This document shows, in pieces, positions 5,701 to 64,000 of a DNA stretch of 64,000 nucleotides. A program made the translations under genes and the position numbers. How positions within the stretch are numbered: the stretch's first letter is position 1; each line of letters begins with the position of its first letter. The DNA comes from Liolophura sinensis (Eukaryota; Mollusca; Polyplacophora; Chitonida; Chitonidae), in NCBI RefSeq assembly GCF_032854445.1, contig NC_088302.1, forward strand, positions 43,748,645-43,812,644, in the 5' to 3' direction. Under the pieces are notes generated by a model. That model was not told the origin of the DNA. It made no database searches and saw only the letters and a program-made list of their open reading frames with translations.

Positions 5701-8700
5701 GACTGGAGATCTATAAACTCTCCAAACCTACATGTGGCAAATGACTTTATGAAATTACACCCCAAAAGTGCATATTTACAGGCAGATAAATGCCATGAAA
5801 TAATACTTTTGGTGCTGAAGCTCACATTTCTCTAGTAGCATATCGGCCTACCTTCCAGTCAAACCTCAGCAGTCCTTTATAACAACAGAATCCAGCAGAA
5901 TTTACCATGCTTCTAGTGAAACAAACAGGTCCAGATACATTGGGAGATGTAAAGAATCAATCCCTAGAGATGCATATCTTGCTTTTCAGTTACCTTTCTG
6001 TTGAGATGGGAAAATAAATGTTCTGTTATGTTTTGTACATTTTAATGTTTTTAAATCTGATAATTAGAGATGGGTGTGTTTGTAGTTTACTAAATTGCAC
6101 CTAGAAATGACAAATTGCACCTAGAAATGACAAATTGCACCTAGAAATGACAAATTGCTAATATGCTTTACTTTTCTTCTTTTCTTTTAAGGTAAAGGAA
6201 AGCTAAAATGTGAAGGAAGGTTCATCGTACAGACAACTGAAAACTAAGCGTAAAAATACTTTCATTTATTTTTTCAGATTTTTTAAAAAGTGTTGAAAGG
6301 CTTTCAAATGTTTGAATACTATGGTGAGCTTTATGAGCCACACTGACGATATCTTTTCCGGATGGTCATGAGAAGAAATGAATTTTGGGAAATAGTTTAT
6401 CAGTAATCTTTTACTCATGGGTAAAAGAGTTATTCCAACATTCAGTGTCGTGGTTAGAGTTGAAAAAAAATTTTTGGTCCATAAAGCCCAAATTAGAATT
6501 CAAGTGTTTGAATGCCTTTATCAGTCTTCACAAAAATCTAAAAAAAAGTAAATGAAAGTATATTTATGCATAGTTTTAAGCATTCTGTTTAGTGATACCT
6601 ACTTCAATTTTTAGAGATCTTTTCTTTTAAACACTGTATGTATTAACTTACAGTGCAAAGGTTGCGGACAAGATTCAGCTGATCGAGAACATGTTGGATA
6701 AAGTGAATGAGATGATCATTGGAGGAGGAATGGCATTTACCTTCCTGAAGAAACTCAAAGGAATGGAGGTATAAATCAGAAAATAACAGTACAATTTAAA
6801 CAGTGAAGGCCCAAAGAATCCTTTACAACTTGTGTTCTCAGATATTTCTATTCTAGGTTATTTACTGTACTCCTCCATCTGTCCAAGTGGACAGGTGAAA
6901 TATTAAATTATTGCTGTAAAAAAATGGTCATTTGGCCACCTTATTTGACATTTCTGCCTACCTGCATAGAATTACAAATCAGCTATTTTGGAGACTATGT
7001 ACAACATGCCACATATCTGAATTACTCTTAGAGTAAAGTCCTTTATAAATGTGTCTGGTTTTGTAATTGCAGATAGGAAATTCCCTGTTTGACGAGGAAG
7101 GCTCTAACATAGTGGGCAAACTGATGGAGAAAGCAGAGAAGAATGGGGTAAAAATTCACCTGCCTACAGACTTCGTGACTGGCAGCAAGTTTGGGGAAGA
7201 CGCTGATGTGGGAACTGCCACTGTGGAAGCAGGCATCCCTGCAGGATGGATGGTGAGTATTATGCAGAGTTATCCCCCCTTACGTGAATCAAGTTATCCA
7301 GTTATCAGTTTCTAAGAAAGCTTACACATGTCTCCTCCAGTTGCCAACAGATACAGTACATATAGCACCTCAGATTCCTGTGGGCTCTTTTTCTATTATT
7401 ATGCTGGCCTTCCTAGTATAAATGAAATATTCTTGAGTACAGCATAAAAGACCTTTGCAAATAAATAAATAGATAATATCTCAGATCAGGTTACATATGA
7501 GACCCGTAGCTAGAAATCAGTATACATGTGGGCAGGATGCAAAGATATATTCTCTCTAAAAAAAAAAGGACAGGATGGCACTACTGCCATACTCAAATGG
7601 CACTACTGCCTACTCAAATAACATAGTGCCAGACAGAGAAAGGTACAATGTACACGTTGTAGGACAGGATTCAGCAGACTTATAAAAAGCCTAGCCAGGG
7701 GATTAAATATTTCTGGTGGATGAAAAATCAGACAAGCATCACTTAGCTAGAAACATTCAGGTGATTTTTCTTCCTTTTGGAGAAATTGTTGTCAGAAATG
7801 TTATGGAATAAACTTTGAAATGCTTAAATTAACAAAAGTATAGGATGTAATTTATTTTGCATGAAATTATCGGTCTGAATACTGAGGAAAGATGTCAGGC
7901 AATTCAGTGTGCATGTCCATCTATTAATCTAACTGATTATGTTTGAATGAAGGTCATTAGCCAGCTTATAAAACCAAAACTCAAAAAACCTGACCAAAAA
8001 TGAATCTCGATGCTTATGTTTCTCATATACTGATGCCCATAGAACTTTATACTGTCTAAAGTCACCAACAAATATTTACCAGTGAATCATTGTTTTTAGA
8101 GGAAAAAGTCTATTGTTCACGATCATCACTGTTAGGTAATTCTTACCCAGTTTTGTTCAGTAATTCTTGAAATGACTTTGAAATGTTCCAAACTCTCATC
8201 CTTTCTCCTGTCTGCTGTGTTCCAGGGATTGGACATCGGTCCAGCATCTACAGCCAAATTTGCTGAGGTGGTGGGTAGGGCCAAGACCATAGTGTGGAAT
8301 GGGTAAGTCATTAGTGACCATAGTGTGGAATGGGTAAGGCAATAGTGACCATAGTGTGCAGTGGGTAAGTCAGTAGTGACCATAGTGTGCAGTGGGTAAG
8401 TCATTAGTGACCATAGTGTGGAATGGGTAAGGCAATAGTGACCATAGTGTGCAGTGGGTAAGTCATTAGTGACCATAGTGTGGAATGGGTAAGTCAGTAG
8501 TGACCATAGTGTGGAATGGATTAGTCAATAGTGACCATAGTGTGGAATGGGTAATCAGTAGTGACCATAGTGTGGAATGGATTAGTCAATAGTGACCATA
8601 GTGTGGAATGGGAAAGTCAGTAGTGACCATAGTGTGGAATGGATTAGTCAATAGTGACCATAGTGTGGAATGGGAAAGTCAGTAGTGACCATAGTGTGGA

Positions 8701-11700
8701 ATGGATTAGTCAATAGTGACCATAGTGTGGAATGGGAAAGTCAGTAGTGACCATAGTGTGGAATGGATGAGTCAGTCACAGTGGACTGACATTGGCCCAG
8801 CATCTACAGCCAAATTTGCTAAGGTGGTGGGTAGGGCCAAGACCATAGTCTGGAATGGGTGAGTCAGTGGGCTAGTTTCCTTGGTTGATAGTGTGGAATG
8901 GATGAGCTATTAGGCTAGCTTCCAGAGTTCATAGTGTGCCATGGAACACAGTGGCTAGATCCCAGGATTGATAGTGTGGAATGGGTGAGTCACACTGGAC
9001 TGGCTCCCTGAGTCATAGTGTGGAATGGGTGAGTCAGTCACAGTGGACTGGCTCCCTGGGTTCATGGTGTGGCATGGGTGATACATTGGGCTAGCTCCCT
9101 GGGTCATAGTATGGAATGGGTGAGTCAGTGGACTGGCTCCCTGGGTTCATGGTGTGGAATGGGTGAGTCAGTGGGCTAGCTCCCTGGGTCATAGTGTGGA
9201 ATGGGTGAGTCAGTCACAGTGGGCCAGCTCCCTGGGTTCATGGTGTGGAATGGGTGAGTCAGTGGGCTATCTCCCTGGGTCATAGTATGGAATGGGTGAG
9301 TCAGTGGACTGGCTCCCTGGGTTCATGGTGTGGAATGGGTGAGTCAGTGGGCTAGCTCCCTGGGTCATAGTATGGAATGGGTGAGTCAGTCACACTGGAC
9401 TGGCTCCCTGGGTTCATGGTGTGGAATGGGTGATACATTGGGCTAGCTCCCTGGGTCATAGTATGGAATGGGTGAGTCAGTCACAGTGGACTGGCTCCCT
9501 GGGTTCATGGTGTGAAATGGGTGATACATTGGGCTATCTCCCTGGGTCATAGTATGGAATGGGTGAGTCAGTGGACTGGCTCCCTGGGTTCATAGTATGG
9601 AATGGGTGAGTCAGTGGGCTAGCTCCCTGGGTCATAGTATGGAATGGGTGAGTCAGTCGCAGTGGACTGGCTCCCTGGGTTCATGGTGTGGAATGGGTGA
9701 GACATTGGGCTAGCTCCATGGGTCATAGTATGGAATGGGTGAGTCAGTGGACTGGCTCCCTGGGTTTATGGTGTGGAATGGGTGAGACATTGGGCTAGCT
9801 CCCTTGGTCGTAGTGTGGAATAGGTGATTCAGTGGACTAGATCCCAGGGTTCTTAGTCAGGAACGGGTGAGTCAGTGGGCTAGCTCCCTGGGTGATAATG
9901 TGGAATGGGTGAGTCAGTGGACTGGCTCCTTGGGTTCATGGTGTGGAATAGGTGTCATTTGGCAAGCTCTTAGGATTCATGGCATGGAATGGGTGAGACA
10001 TTGGGCTAGCTCCATGGGTCATAGTATGGAATGGGTGAGTCAGTGGACTGGCTCCCTGGGTTTATGGTGTGGAATGGGTGAGACATTGGGCTAGCTCCCT
10101 TGGTCGTAGTGTGGAATAGGTGATTCAGTGGACTAGATCCCAGGGTTCTTAGTCAGGAACGGGTGAGTCAGTGGGCTAGCTCCCTGGGTGATAATGTGGA
10201 ATGGGTGAGTCAGTGGACTGGCTCCTTGGGTTCATGGTGTGGAATAGGTGTCATTCGGCAAGCTCTTAGGATTCATGGCATGGAATGGGTGAGTTATTGG
10301 GCTGGCTTCCTTGGTCCATAGTGTGGAATTGGTGACTCAGTAGGATAGCTTCCTGGGTTCATGGTTTGGAATGGGTGAGATATTGGGCTAGCTCCCTGGG
10401 TCACAGTGTGGAATGGTTGAGTCAGTGGACTAGCTCTCTGGGTTCATGGTATGGAATAGGTAAGTCAGCAAGCTCTCAGGGTTCATAGTGTGAAATAGTT
10501 GAGTCATTGGGTTAGCTTTCAGGGTTTGTGGTGTGTAATGAGTCATTGGGCTAGCTCCCTGGGTCATAATGTGGAATGGGTGAGATATTGGGCTAACTAC
10601 CTGGGTCACAGTGTGGAATGGTCGAGTCAGTGGACTAGCTCCCTGGGTTCATGGTATGGAATAGGTAAGTCAGCTAGCTCTCAGGGTTCATAGTGTGAAA
10701 TAGTTGAGTCAGTGGGTTAGCTTTCAGGGGTTGTGGTGTGTAATGAGTCATTGGGCTAGCTCCCTGGGTCATAATGTGGAATGGGTGAGATATTGGGCTA
10801 ACTACCTGGGTCACAGTGTGGAATGGTCGAGTCAGTGGACTAGCTCCCTGGGTTCATGGTATGGAATAGGTAAGTCAGCTAGCTCTCAGGGTTCATAGTG
10901 TGAAATAGTTGAGTCAGTGGGTTAGCTTTCAGGGGTTGTGGTGTGTAATGAGTCATTGGGCTAGCTCCCTGGGTCATAGTGTGAAATGGGTGAGTCATTG
11001 GACTAGCTTGTTGGGTTTATAGTGTGGCATGGGTGAATTAGTGTGCCTGCTTTCTGTGAACGTGGTGTGGAATGGATGAGTCAGTGGCCTAGCTTCCTGG
11101 GTTCATAGTATTGAATGGGTGAGTCAGTGGGCTGGGTTCATGGTGTGGAATGGGTGAGTTAGTGAGCTCGCTTCCCGGGTTCATAGTGTGGAATGGATGA
11201 GTCAGTGGCCTAGCTTCCTGGGTTCATAGTATTGAATGGGTAAGTCAGTGGGCTGGGTTCATGGTGTGGAATGGGTGAGTTAGTGAGCTCGCTTCCCGGG
11301 TTCATAGTGTGGAATGGATGAGTCATTGGCCTAGCTTCCTGGGTTCATAGTATTGAATGGGTGAGTCAATGGGCTCGCTATTTGGTGTCCTTGTATAAAA
11401 TGGGTGTCAGTGGGCTAGCTCTCCAAGTTCATAGTGTGGAATGGGTGAGTCAGTGGGCTCGCTTTTTGGTGTCCTTGTATGTCCCTGGTGTCCTTCCACA
11501 TAGTGTGGAATGGTGAGTCATTGGACTGGCTTTCTGTGTTCATAGTGTGGAATGGGTGAGTCATTGGACTGGCTTTCTGTGTTCATAGTGTGGAATGGGT
11601 GAGTCATTGGGCTTTCTTTTTGTATTCATAGCGTGGAATGGGTGAGTCATTGGGCTAGCCATCTGTGTTCATAGTGTGGAATGGGTGAGTCATTGGACTG

Positions 11701-14700
11701 GCTTTCTGTGTTCATAGTGTGGAATGGGTGAGTCATTGGGCTAGCCATCTGTGTTCATAGTGTGGAGTGGGTGAGTCATTGGGCTAGCCATCTGTGTTCA
11801 TAGTGTGGAATGGGTGAGTCATTGGGCTTTCTTTCTGTATTCATAGCGTGGAATGGGTGAGTCATTGGGCTAGCCACCTGTGTTCATAGTGTGGAATGGG
11901 TGAGTCATTGGACTGGCTTTCTGTGTTCATAGTGTGGAATGGGTGAGTCATTGGGCTAGCCTTCTGTGTTCATAGTGTGGAATGGGTGAGTCATTGGGCT
12001 AGCCATCTGTGTTCATAGTGTGGAATGAGTGAGTCATTGGACTGGCTTTCTGTGTTCATAGTGTGGAATGGGTGAGTCATTGGACTGGCTTTCTGTGTTC
12101 ATAGTGTGGAATGGATGAGTCATTGGACTGGCTTTCTGTGTTCATAGTGTGGAATGGTGAGTCATTGGACTGGCTTTCTGTGTTCATAGTGTGGAATGGG
12201 TGAGTCATTGGACTGGCTTTCTGTGTTCATAGTGTGGAATGGGTGAGTCATTGGGCTAGCCATCTGTGTTCATAGTGTGGAATGGGTGAGTCATTGGACT
12301 GGCTTTCTGTGTTCATAGTGTGGAATGGGTGAGTCATTGGGCTAGCCATCTGTGTTCATAGTGTGGAATGGGTGAGTCATTGGGCTAGCCATCTGTGTTC
12401 ATAGTGTGGAATGGGTGAGTCATTGGACTGGCTTTCTGTGTTCATAGTGTGGAATGGGTGAGTCATTGGACTGGCTTTCTGTGTTCATAATGTGGAATGG
12501 GTGAGTCATTGGGCTAGCCATCTGTGTTCATAGTGTGGAATGGGTGAGTCATTGGACTGGCTTTCTGTGTTCATAGTGTGGAATGGGTGAGTCATTGGGC
12601 TAGCCATCTGTGTTCATAGTGTGGAATGGGTGAGTCATTGGACTGGCTTTCTGTGTTCATAGTGTGGAATGGGTGAGTCATTGGGCTAGCCATCTGTGTT
12701 CATAGTGTGGAATGGGTGAGTCATTGGGCTAGCCATCTGTGTTCATAGTGTGGAATGGGTGAGTCATTGGGCTAGCCTTCTGTGTTCATAGTGTGGAATG
12801 GGTGAGTCATTGGACTGGCTTTCTGTGTTCATAGTGTGGAATGGGTGAGTCATTGGGCTAGCCATCTGTGTTCATAGTGTGGAATGGGTGAGTCATTGGG
12901 CTAGCCTTCTGTGTTCATAGTGTGGAATGGGTGAGTCATTGGGCTAGCCTTCTGTGTTCATAGTGTGGAATGGATGAGTCATTGGACTGGCTTTCTGTGT
13001 TCATAGTGTGGAATGGGTATGTAACAAGAAGCTTCTCTTGCATGGTGAGTAGTACTACGTTCTCAAGGGAGATACTGTACAGGCTCATCCTAACTCACAT
13101 CCTCAGAAAAGAAAGGCCAGTGGTAAGAGGAGAGGGGGAGAGGAGAGTGGTCAGAATGTGTTACCCTCCACTGCTGATTGCTGATTGTCCTGTCTTAGTA
13201 GGTTAGCTGGACACTATCAGCAGTCCAATTTTCACCACCCATAAACCTGACTGTTTTCATATAAGCGAAACACGTTCTTGCACACAACATTAAACATCAA
13301 CCAGATAACCAAACACTGAGAAGGCTGGTTCTGTTCCAGTTTTTGTTTGCATAATACTTGTCTTGGTAAATAAAACAATATGAAAATAAAAAAACGCATC
13401 AGTACATTCATGTGGGTTTAAATTATATATCTTATGGCATATCATCTTCCAGTTTCGTACCAATAACTGATAATTTGAATATCTTTTGTAAATCTCAGCC
13501 CTCCAGGTGTGTTTGAGTTTGAAAAGTTTGCCAGTGGTACCAAAGGTGTCATGGATGCAGTTGTGGCTGCCACACAGGCTGGGGCAACTTCTATCATCGG
13601 TAAGTTGTGTACGAGAAATGATAGCCATCATTGTTGTTATTATATTAAATTGGTAGTATGATGTCGTAAAATGTAAGCATATATTGGCACTGAATTTCTT
13701 TGTAATTTTGTAACACATCTGCAATTTCATAGTGAGAAGTGGTTGATTTTGATGGACATCATATTCTGAATGGCATTTGTAGCACCACATGTTTGCTGGG
13801 CTGGTTTGTGAACCATGCATGCACATCAGGTTGGTTTGATTACTATACATGTAAAAGCCCCATACATATATCCACGGACAGGTAAAACATTATTCATGAA
13901 CACATCATCATTAAGGCACTGGACTGGTTTGAGCACTTTAAAATATACATATGCCCATTTAAAGCACTATAAATGTAGATTCAGTTTGTAAAGCACTATA
14001 AATGTAGACTCAGTTTGTAAAGTACTGTAAATATAGATTCAGTTTGTAAAGCACTATAAATTTAGATTCAGTTTGTAAAGCACTATAAAATGTAGATTCA
14101 AGTTGTAGAGTTATACATTTACATCTGGGGAGTTTATAGAGCAATGTAAATATATGCTGGTCTGAATTTAGCCCTTTACATGAACTTAAGCAATACACGT
14201 GTCACAGATCTGAGTGCATTTCTCACCTGTAGATTTTAACTTGCAGTCAGGGATCAGACAGCTCTGAGTGTGTTTTCTCACCTGTAAACTTTAGCTTGCA
14301 GTCAGGGATCAAACGGCTCTGTGGGTGTTTTCTCACCTGTAAACTTCAGCTTACAATCAGGGGGTCAAACAGCTCTAAGTGTGTTTTCTCACCTGTAAAC
14401 TTTATCTTACAATCAAGGATCAAACAGTCCTGGTTGTGTTTTCTCACCTGTAAACTTCAGCTTACTATCACAGGGGTAAACAGCTCTGAGTGTGTTTTCT
14501 CACCTGTAAACTTCAGCTTACAGTCAGGGGGTCAAACAGTTCTGAATGTATTTTCTCACTTGTAAACTTCAGCTTACATTCAGGGGTTCAAACTGGTCTG
14601 AATGTGTTTTCTCACCTGTAAACTTCAGCTTACATTCAGGGGGTCAAACTGGTCTGAGTGTGCTTTCTCACCTGTAAACTTTAGCTTACAGCCAGGGGTC

Positions 14701-57437: not shown

Positions 57438-60400
57438 CTTGAAAGAAACGAAGAGAACAGTATGATTATCGATTCATGCTCAGTTTTTTATTTTGTTTCT
57501 TTTACCCTGTCACAAGAATGGATTCTAGCACACCTGTTGATTCTTTAGCCTAGAAAACATTGGAAAAAGACATGCACCATATAACATGTCGTAATGTCCA
57601 TGTTGGCAACTTGCCAAGATTTTCAGCCAAGATGGACTCTTCCAAATGAAGAGTGAATAGGTTACACTCTTACAAGTAACTGTTGCCCGTTTCACTCAAA
57701 CAATAAAGAACTCACACCCAGATCTCAAATGGATCATGTATTAAATGGGTAAAGATCATGTCAAGTTTAATGGAAAAGTACAGTTCTGATATTTAAATAA
57801 AACATTCTCTTTAGTCGAAAACCTGGCCCACAGATGCTAGGCTACAGCATTATGGCAATAGCTCTCTATGGATTGACTACGGTTAATTAGAGCAGCCTAA
57901 ATCCCTGAAACACATCTTACTGCCTTGGTGCAAATCATTCCATGGAATGGAGTCGCCATGTAAACTAATGTGTGTATGTATGTCGAAAACCTGGCTTCGC
58001 CTGTCGTCTTTACATTAAAATCGCTCACTTCTACACAGCCAACTGGAGTATGCTTGTGAGAGTAAAAATGTAATAAATTAATAAGATTTAGTAATATCCA
58101 AGTGAGTTAGAACAGAGATAAGGTTTTGCTTCTTGGAGTAAACTGCCTCAAATATATGCCGGAAAAATGGACATACCCACTATTTGAGGCCAAGTCCGTT
58201 TTTGCGGCTGGCAGTTTGCCGCAAAAAGCGAACCTTCTTTTCTTAAACCTAAGAAATAATGGACATAATGGACGCTCCACGATGGTGAAATAATTATTCG
58301 ATAATTTAATTGATCGTCGTTAAACACTTGGTTAAAAATTGTTTTCAGTTAAAGTATGGCGGTCAGTTTTATGGGTGGAAGAAACCAGAGTTCATGAACC
58401 AAACCACCGACTTTACTAATGAACTCTTCCACGTATGGCGTTGAGATACATACTCCTTTCAGCGCATGCGTCGCTCTCAACACCTGGGGCCGCTTGCACA
58501 AGGCGATCGTGGACTAAGGTCATTGTAATTACCATGACCACAAGTGTTAGAAACATACTTTGCCATGGTAGTTACAAGCCAACCTTGGCTACGACAGCTA
58601 TGTACAAGAGGTTTCTGAACCATTTTTATCCATGGATCCTGATTGAATAGTTCCGCACGAGGACGCCAGTGGCGAGGCCAAGCCTAAACAAAGACAACGT
58701 GGGTCACACAGGCTCCAAGGCCAAGTTTATCCAGTGGTGGCAGTGATGTCTAGCGAGCGTAGAGATCGGCACGTGCGCTGTAAGGAGTATAGTACAGATA
58801 TGGGCCTATGCACATCATACTAGAGGGCAAGTGATCTTCAACGAACGTTAGACTGCACAAACGGCTCGAAGGCGTCGTCGACCGCTTATTGTCACCAAGG
58901 CTTCACAAACTGTCAAAGAATCTACAAATTCACTGTCCCAGGCCAGTTTTGAACCCATACTTTGTCTTATAGCGATTGGAAAGCAAGAACCTTAACCACC
59001 ATCAAGCCACAGCCCGCTTGCAAATGAAATATTTAGTTAAAAACTTTTCGATTGATCGATTACCCATTCCCCTAGACTGGGGAGTTTACCACTTTTTCGA
59101 TAAATCGTTTGATTTATTGTTTATTTATATTCTTACTGATATATTTTATATATAATATAAGACAGTGCTTTACTACTTTGTTATTTTTTGTAATCGTTGC
59201 TATTTAACTTACCCCATATACAAACAGCTGCTTTTCTCCGAGGGCGTCGACTGTCTTAGCAATCTTATGTTTGCGGCCTCTTTTTGGTAGTTTAGTTCTC
59301 ATTAAGACGCTCACCAGGGCATATTCCACAAGGGCTAGGAAAGTAAAGGTCAAGCAGTTTATCACCCACACATCAATCGCTGTGACGTAGGAGATCCGTG
59401 GTAATGAGTCGCGTGCTTTCGACGTTTGTGTCGTCATGGTGAGAAGTGTGAGAACACCCAACGAGACTCTAGCAGGCGTGGCCTCCACGTTTAGCCAAAA
59501 GGAAACCCAGGAGACGGTGACGATCATGATGCTCGGGATGTAAATCTGTAGAGTGTAGTAACCACTCCAGCGAACAAACTCCACACAGATAAGTAGACAG
59601 GTGAAATTCTCTGCAAAAAAAAACCATATACCATTGTTTCTTCTCTAAAATGGATACAGAAACGATTCTGATTGGCTGCTGTGAGAAACAGGCAAGTCCA
59701 GGTTATGCCTTGCCTAAGCTGAATTTTATGTATGGTATATTTTTTCAAGCGTGATCAAGGCTGCAAGATTTAACCCAGGAAAGCCAACAGGCGTCGACAG
59801 TGTATCCCTTTGAATGGTGTTTCACAAAAAACTCAACTTTGTACCCCGTTTATAACCGCAGTCAAGTTTATGGCGGAGGACGCCATTCCCCTTCGCCGGT
59901 TACTTCAAAATTCTCCTGTTAAAAAGCCACAGCCATATCGGTAGGCCCAGGATTCGAACACGCAACCTCATGGAACCCCACAGAAGAGATATGTCATATT
60001 GTCTTAATCAACTTTCGCATACCAGAAAAACAAGATGTTCAAAATGCATAATAGTAAAATGGTAACACCAATTATCACTGCGAGAAGACAACAGACACAT
60101 TTATTGTGAGAATGCCATAAAAAAACTTAGTAATATTCCAGTGACGAAACTGTCAGTTATTTCCTTCCTTCCGTTCCACTCAAGCTACCAATTCCGAACT
60201 CAGGTAACCTTTTCACAAAGCCATTTGGCCTAAAATTGTAATCCAAATATACAAAATTTTGGCCCCCGATTTTATATTGCCGTTTAAAAATCAAGCTTGT
60301 TCTGTAAAGACGATTCGATTCTTGGACATCGTGTGTTTGTAAATCAGGCCTAAGAAAATGTATTTGACAATGTGATATGCACGACCACAGCTGACACCTG

Positions 60401-63041: not shown

Positions 63042-64000
63042 TCACAGATTATTCACTGAATAATGAAATTCCACTCTAGTGGTTTCACACTCAAGTAACG
63101 TACACATTTCCTTATGGTGACTTGCCTTTACTGTTACGGTTGGCTCTCTAACAACAAGTTGTGCACGATTGCGTGGTTTGATGCCTTTTGAAGTCTTTAC
63201 TGTGTAAGACCGTTTTCTTGCTGTGCAACACAGTAGCTTCCGTCTGTTCTGGTAAAAGTATTTGATGTAAGCGTCATTTAACACTAGCTCCCAAAGACAA
63301 AGGCATGTAGGAAATTATACAAATAGGAAATAAAGCCGGTAACACACAAGAGAAGTGGTCATCAGTTTTCAATGACGCCGGGCAGAAGCTGTTTCACTTT
63401 ATGTAACTGATCAAAAAGTTACGTTTCTGTATCTCCCTTTGCTTTTGGTTTTCAGACTTTATGTTGTTAAAATCAGTCCACTGTGGAATGAGACTAGACG
63501 GCAACACGGGTATCCCGTTTCTGAGCCTCCGTCCCATTAATAACTCAGAAGAGGTTTATGTATTCTGCAACGGAGTGGTGGGGTAACAAAGCGAGGTAAG
63601 GATCGCCTGCTTACTTAAGACGTCATTTCATTGTCTGCACTGCAGACTGTCTGCACTCTCTGCTTCTCCATTACCTTCAGGCTAATACGGACTACTGGTT
63701 ATGTACCGAAATCTGTAAGAGTCGGCAAACTCATATGAGGCAAACTGTGGACCGTTATCCCATATAACAGTCTCTGGTATACCGTGTCTCGAAAAGATGG
63801 GCTTCACACGTTCTATTACTCTGTGGGGCTCTGATGTGGTGCTCCTGAGATGAGCAATCTCAATGAACTTCGAATAATAATCCACAGTTATAAGGTAGGT
63901 GTTACTCTTCCATTCGAACAGGTTCATCTCGACTTTCTGCCAAGGATAATCCGGCATCATCAAAGGAAGTAGTGGTTCCGGTCGCTGTCTTCTCACTTGT
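63042..64000 (-). mobile_element. Decayed Ty3/gypsy integrase region
   Basis: The minus strand encodes a retroelement integrase core from the window's right edge: LITVDYYSKFIEIAHLRSTT, then HGIPETVIWDNGPQFASYEF and TSSPY. After this come GNGEAES, TSSELLMGRRLRNGIPVLPS and, near the 3' end, SYTVKTSKGIKPRNR, as in gypsy-type integrase C-termini. The copy is dead: an in-frame TAG at 63682-63684 cuts the core, more stops follow, and the first catalytic Asp position reads Asn (MNLFEW instead of the usual DLF). No LTR was recognised. The 5' part lies beyond the window. Confidence 0.88.

Follow-up and report, generated by a model that had tools for sequence, protein, structure and literature searches.

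Tandem repeats that span exon-intron boundaries have been described in amphioxus as “mirages”; two papers report them from Adh3, the globin genes BflGb6 and BflGb9, troponin C, and PGBD5 (the latter two added by the second paper), apparently without disturbance of normal splicing (PMC3087553, PMC3902484). Length and somatic instability are among their reported features, and their repeated sites could act as cryptic sites (PMC3087553). The array considered here, which makes up most of intron 9 of the gene for phosphoglycerate kinase (PGK, a sugar-burning enzyme) in a 64,000-nt stretch of the genome of the chiton Liolophura sinensis (the window, within which positions are given), shares two properties with these: each of its units runs from the end of the exon across the splice site into the intron, with the authentic site at the edge of the array, and its units are tens of bp long (10-72 bp in Adh3). 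It differs in its molluscan host, in the presence of a second exon copy inside the array, in being one of several such cases in a sample of 39 arrays from its genome, and in copy number, with 109 core copies over 4.7 kb against the 6 and 3 units reported for the two amphioxus BflGb6 haplotypes.

The minisatellite of the human IFI6 (6-16) gene is said to lie at the 3′ boundary of an exon, and was reportedly recognized by Turri et al. in 1995 as providing several donors. Its units, like those in PGK, carry donors, and it supplies multiple splice donors (PMC4526556); two downstream units are used, giving three mRNA species, whereas in PGK every downstream donor is predicted to lead to an immediate TAA. 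Intron gain by tandem genomic duplication, as presented for a potato RdRp gene (PMC4974935), also involves tandem duplication of a segment that includes splice-site sequence. Unlike in that case, the acceptor of PGK intron 9 (13497-13498) is no copy of the array, being separated from the array's end at 13019 by 479 nt of other sequence, and the intron is not bounded by splice sites from two copies of one segment. Since this acceptor lies outside it, the array enlarged an intron and did not create one.

Tandem repeats at exon-intron boundaries are also reported for recent human duplicates (PMC2812944); an abalone kinase gene has minisatellites in introns (PMC6905558), and introns of earthworm metallothionein genes contain tandem repeats (PMC12783039), but in the passages concerned neither is said to span a splice site. 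A literature search on molluscs and chitons found, among the titles and abstract openings listed, no splice-site-spanning array of this kind, although most subscription journals were outside its coverage and absence from print is not implied. What appears to be new is the phylum and the scale, the kind of repeat being known already. The statement in a first-pass annotation of the window that no such case had been described does not hold as to kind, given the amphioxus mirages, human IFI6, and other genes of the chiton genome itself.

The gene bearing the array was recognized as PGK from its reading frame and from Pfam matches. It appears to be single copy, because all seven PGK exon matches in a search of the genome (609,464,459 bases in 632 contigs; seven of ten candidates were scored, with exons 9 and 10 outside the seven) fall at or around this one locus; the idea that another PGK gene or a PGK pseudogene gave rise to the array was rejected, Pfam PGK matches being found at this locus only. 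Exons 9 and 10 (Table 1), when joined, read through in frame, and the intron between them (8303-13498, 5.2 kb) is mostly array.

A single tandem array of about 4.7 kb, built of the end of exon 9 and its donor, extends from 8285 to 13019, much as the first-pass annotation had proposed for 8303-13017; Tandem Repeats Finder (TRF) divides it into three (Table 1). The unit of the first block (A) consists of the last 18 bases of the exon and 13 bases of the intron, and 15 units follow the authentic junction. The 18 exon bases are copied exactly up to the donor, as had been noticed earlier, and the junction word (18+8 bases) recurs downstream at 100% identity, while four control words reach at most 58%. 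A core scan allowing up to 7 substitutions finds 109 cores: those of exon 9 (8288) and of its copy (8844), 15 in the 31-bp block, 56 in a diverged 43-bp block (B1), and 36 in a uniform 43-bp block (B2), so that the core is indeed retained in the later, 43-bp units. Spacings in B1 are mainly 42-43 and 49 bp, with longer periods as well (e.g., 86 bp), and GTRAGT is found at the aligned place in 30 of the 56 cores. The B2 donor, GTGAGT, is at the aligned place in 31 of 36 cores and shifted by one base in 2 more; most B2 units also have an acceptor-like tract (e.g., TTTCTGTGTTCATAG), ending ten bases 5′ of the donor. In its minisatellite-length units (31 and 43 bp), and in a unit that takes in a splice site of its own gene with the exon end before it and the first intron bases after it, this array has the makeup of a mirage.

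The exact 23-mer CATAGTGTGGAATGGGTRAGTCA, which combines core and donor, has 31 matches in the 609-Mb genome, the real one included, and all of them are within the PGK array; the reversed pattern has no match in the genome. A dispersed satellite that holds a donor by accident was rejected on this basis. Because the core of the unit codes for part of a conserved enzyme, as the Pfam match to PGK indicates, the sensible direction is from exon to array, which supports the earlier proposal that the array would have grown from the authentic exon 9/intron 9 junction.

Between 8303 and 13019 there are 69 GTRAGT sequences including the authentic donor, and hence 68 decoys. Chance can be excluded as their origin, since the background of GTRAGT is 0.75 per kb (plus strand, window from 13020 on) and the 23-mers are confined to the array. 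The first-pass annotation had put the number of near-perfect donors at roughly a hundred; there are 109 cores, but only 68 decoys keep GTRAGT, and the donor GT itself has been lost in 8 of the 15 block A units. The close resemblance of many sites to the authentic one is borne out by donor scoring, with donor frequencies not computed specifically for this species: of the 603 GTs in the array, 67 come to within 0.5 bit of the score of the authentic donor, and 12 equal or exceed it. Predicted pairing with U1 is likewise about equal, at -10.4 kcal/mol for the common decoy TGGGTGAGT (55 copies) and -10.3 kcal/mol for the authentic TGGGTAAGT. The array also contains 48 acceptor-like AGs (10.2 per kb; the part of the window beyond it has 4.2 per kb), and pseudo-exons derived from B2 units are conceivable, since their acceptor-like tracts end so shortly before most B2 donors.

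Reading past the authentic donor encounters an in-frame TAA at 8304-8306. Use of a downstream donor therefore cannot yield a longer PGK, on which ground longer isoforms from the array were rejected, and should destroy the PGK message. Messages with such an early stop are usually unstable. Where strong donors have been duplicated in vitro, the acceptor-proximal one is often preferred; this preference would be fatal in PGK, and either exon definition across 77 nt or the order of splicing would have to overrule it.

We consider the array, with good though not complete confidence, to be a donor-type mirage: a minisatellite seeded on the PGK donor that has grown passively, is tolerated as long as splicing keeps to the first donor, and has no function of its own. 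Its seed would have been a short tandem duplication across the exon 9/intron 9 junction, tolerable because the first copy keeps exon and donor intact in front while the remainder falls into the intron. Slippage or unequal exchange may then have enlarged the array within the intron, in two or more rounds (the 31-bp and the 43-bp units), and one larger duplication would have taken in 71 bp of exon 9. Repeated local amplification of this sort would leave blocks of unlike divergence (88, 73, and 92% matches), more than one type of unit, and a copy of the exon, as are seen here. Splicing would prefer the first donor, paired across 77 nt with the acceptor of exon 9, and would have to, because any later donor brings in the TAA at once. 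Provided that the spliceosome uses only this donor, the copies would be neutral and could grow as in any minisatellite. Such arrays would be common in this genome because it makes many minisatellites, and the one in PGK, as a common kind of repeat here, is probably harmless.

Similar arrays were collected by searching the genome for three GGTRAGT motifs at gaps of 18-48 bases. The 100 matches listed for each pattern (GTGAGT-first and GTAAGT-first) lie within the opening 5 and 26 Mb of a single chromosome and amounted, by hand count, to 19 and 23 arrays. The donor set comprises 39 of these 42 (19 + 20), picked by the repeated motif regardless of exons, with three omitted before their flanks were seen; in four of the 39 (L008, L014, L028, and L041) no TRF array has the donor in its consensus, and the edge was set by the motif. 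For 36 arrays the longest frame at the 5′ edge was searched against Pfam (three have no frame), with an extra frame for L013 and L023 and a threshold of E 0.05. Six donor-set peptides, and no control peptides, were searched against PDB sequences.

Nine of the 39 arrays start at the end of an exon with protein homology by Pfam or PDB (Table 1). In these nine, 8 to 32 bases of exon end are repeated exactly before a downstream GTR, and a 26-base junction word recurs downstream with 85-100% identity in eight (65% in L025), control words from further upstream reaching 65% or less. L011 presumably represents KATNIP. The matches of L040 and L041 are to one helicase-like protein, which we take to be Mot1, the orthologue of BTAF1; the two arrays are separated by 12 kb on one strand, and their order is that of a single gene, which thus appears to hold two independent donor-seeded arrays. 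In L024 (RPC1-like) and L027 (glycosyl hydrolase 31-like), the first donors, called authentic from frame and homology, are GTAAAT and GTATGT, and the decoys behind them are GTAAGT; going by these motifs, decoys can be closer to consensus than the real donor. As a separate point, the unit of L027, at 39 bp divisible by three, keeps the frame open over one unit or more, and longer in-frame products are conceivable.

Three arrays with an open frame to the first donor and almost no exon sequence in the unit (L021, L023, and L032) were not counted as mirages; the L021 peptide, which we take to be from SMARCC, had no match in the PDB search. Another five (L013, L018, L019, L035, and L043) stand outside the nine: their frames are open and their junction words recur, at 0.77 to 1.0, but Pfam gave no match below 0.05.

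Table 1. Features of the PGK locus, donor-bearing arrays with protein homology at other genes, and further features of the window
Feature	Position	Strand	Pfam match (E)	PDB match (E)	Remarks
PGK exon 9	8226-8302	+	PGK, 4.8e-06 (26.2 bits, slightly below curated cut-off of 27)		77 nt; starts in phase 0, ends in phase 2; 26-residue peptide; acceptor TCCTGTCTGCTGTGTTCCAG
5′ splice site of intron 9	8303-8308	+			GTAAGT; authentic by reading frame, not RNA
Block A, 31-bp units	8285-8776	+			TRF 15.9 copies, 88% matches; begins inside exon 9
Second copy of exon 9	8782-8858	+	PGK, 4.4e-05		68 of 77 bases; donor GTGAGT
Block B1, diverged units	8859-11498	+			TRF row 8844-11464, 43 bp, 73% matches
Block B2, uniform 43-bp units	11499-13019	+			TRF row 11499-13018, 92% matches; ATG/GTGAGT pair
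PGK exon 10	13499-13599	+			101 nt; splice target of intron 9, from joined reading frame
L011			DUF4457, 2.2e-16		
L015			Core-2/I-Branching, 1.7e-06		
L020			E1 dehydrogenase, 0.017 (below curated cut-off)	2-oxoglutarate dehydrogenase (OGDH), 1.6e-14	
L024				RNA polymerase III RPC1, 1.8e-07	
L025			DHDPS family, 0.04 (below curated cut-off)	N-acetylneuraminate lyase, 8.4e-04	
L027			Glycosyl hydrolase 31, 6.3e-14		
L030			Ankyrin, 9.8e-12		
L040	C1, ~4.18-4.19 Mb	-	SNF2, 5.2e-06	6g7e, helicase-like protein, 4.1e-15	
L041	C1, ~4.18-4.19 Mb	-	HEAT, 0.0018 (below curated cut-off)	6g7e, helicase-like protein, 8.4e-11	
Open frame, 939 aa	23346-26162	-	No match at 0.01		
Ion channel exon	59207-59644	-	Neurotransmitter-gated ion channel, 3.7e-32		
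Retroelement integrase fragment	63685-63999	-	rve, 3.7e-07 (under curated cut-off)		

As controls, arrays with the reversed motif were taken: 22 clusters were listed and 16 fetched, the six omitted being two that the donor set already contained, two additional copies of a duplicated segment, and two beside another cluster. Pfam searches of 13 of the 16 gave no match below 0.05, the closest being 0.072 and 0.16.

Over the whole genome, matches to the GTGAGT-first pattern number 3598 (1720 + 1878 on the two strands) against 2383 (1221 + 1162) for its reverse, and those to the GTAAGT-first pattern 2032 (957 + 1075) against 2869 (1387 + 1482), so that in total (5630 and 5252) there is little excess. 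A genome-wide excess of donor-motif arrays was rejected, one pattern lying above and the other below its reversed control, though these counts are of matches rather than arrays and are weak evidence either way. This near balance, together with a window rich in minisatellites, is as expected if seeding is passive: TRF rows merged by hand give 25 separate arrays, 8 of at least 400 bp, which cover 12.2 of the window's 64 kb (19%), and the genome as a whole seems rich in such repeats. A G-rich strand or R-loop as the general seed was also rejected, GC skew being 0.42 in PGK, -0.22 to 0.59 in 14 other candidate mirages, and -0.32 to 0.79 in the 16 controls. On the distribution of these repeats, 12 of the 23 clusters in the GTAAGT-first list are in the first 5.2 Mb of chromosome 1 (C1) and the others in the next 21 Mb, which suggests that minisatellites concentrate near the chromosome end.

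By a rough scaling, the genome would hold about 1,150 donor-motif arrays (some double-counted) and, at nine in 39, about 260 mirages of this motif; the sampled chromosome start may be richer than the rest, and the demand for homology and the choice of motif both lead to undercounting. On balance we lean slightly toward donor-seeded minisatellites being a genome-wide class that affects a few hundred genes, including those of core enzymes, in which many near-identical decoys follow a real donor and the first would still be chosen.

Several observations weigh against a passive mirage as the explanation. Use of the first donor is a prediction, based on the TAA and on the amphioxus reports. The loss of GT from over half of the units nearest the exon could be a hint of selection against decoys, and so not of neutrality; the persistence of 68 full GTRAGT decoys in PGK would be surprising if decoys were costly. 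Among the other genes, three of the eight Pfam matches (L020, L025, and L041) are under the curated cut-off and lean on their PDB matches, and L025 copies 8 exon bases only, its longer junction word doing no better than control words. The difference in Pfam matches between donor arrays (8 of 39) and control arrays (0 of 16) is not significant (Fisher p 0.089), and one control, L059, is itself a likely mirage: it holds GGTGAGT, its open frame ends in GTCAGAG/GTGAGT, and its junction word recurs at 100%. The weight of evidence is on the junction alignments, not on the contrast between donor and control arrays.

A role for the array has nevertheless to be considered, in which its 68 donors and acceptor-like sites would bind U1 and U2 small nuclear ribonucleoproteins, slow or redirect the splicing of intron 9, and lower PGK by way of nonsense-mediated decay, perhaps in a regulated manner. 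The U1 pairing of the decoys, equal to that of the real donor, would suit such a role, as would the TAA that follows from any later donor and the B2 units with their closely spaced acceptor-like tracts and donors. However, like arrays are found at unrelated genes with unrelated sequences, amphioxus mirages are reported not to upset splicing (PMC3087553, PMC3902484), and GT is often missing from the very units nearest the exon; we regard a decoy function as very unlikely. That the copy number has been inflated or collapsed in assembly might be suspected from the general difficulty of assembling tandem arrays, and from the mitochondrial contig of the same assembly, which is a concatemer. Against this, HiFi reads are long enough to span 4.7 kb (PacBio HiFi reads of Liolophura japonica are given a mean of 8,347 bp, at 14x, in PMC11068029), and the array has internal landmarks, in the exon copy and the diverged units, and no other placed copy, which makes an artefact extremely doubtful.

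The exon 9 copy between blocks A and B, which the first-pass annotation overlooked, raises one more possibility, that of a nascent alternative exon used in place of exon 9 (exon 8 to copy to exon 10). Homology is clear from 8788, with 67 of 71 bases identical (94%) over 8788-8858; three of the differences are synonymous and one changes E to K, and the frame is open. The copy joins exon 10 in frame, while exon 9, the copy, and exon 10 in succession run into a stop, as would be expected of mutually exclusive exons. On the other hand, its first two residues are altered from GL to WT, and its acceptor is poor, with 5 pyrimidines in 12 against 8 in 12 for the true exon 9; it has no true pyrimidine tract because its upstream flank is array sequence. 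Four differences are also too few to reveal selection, and they could simply reflect constraint on exon 9 itself. An exon in the making seems very unlikely. A genome search with exon 9 finds two places, both in the window, and so no second haplotype in the assembly.

The mitochondrial contig, C99, carries seven copies of cox1 about 15.5 kb apart, a head-to-tail concatemer that is an assembly artefact, and has a long alternating TA-rich stretch before cox3. Read with table 5, its cox1 shows AAA at a place of expected Lys and AGA at one of expected Ser, in keeping with a mollusc and contrary to an echinoderm; a starfish as host was rejected on the AAA codon. The remaining features noted in the window are minus-strand (Table 1).

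Where dozens of near-identical donors follow one another, the strength of a splice site cannot explain which is chosen, and position must. Candidate positional cues are pairing with the upstream acceptor across the 77-nt exon, the order of transcription, and distance to the branch point. PGK, in which misuse leads to an immediate stop, and the genes for OGDH, an RNA polymerase III subunit, and the helicase-like protein are ready cases for the study of donor choice; the conflict between the inferred use of the first donor and the preference seen in vitro makes PGK worth testing. The arrays further illustrate one way in which introns lengthen and in which pieces of exon, in one instance a nearly whole exon, are carried into them. 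If donor-seeded minisatellites do form a genome-wide class, the chiton genome would offer a natural collection of experiments in choice among multiple donors, and would extend the amphioxus phenomenon at the level of the phylum.

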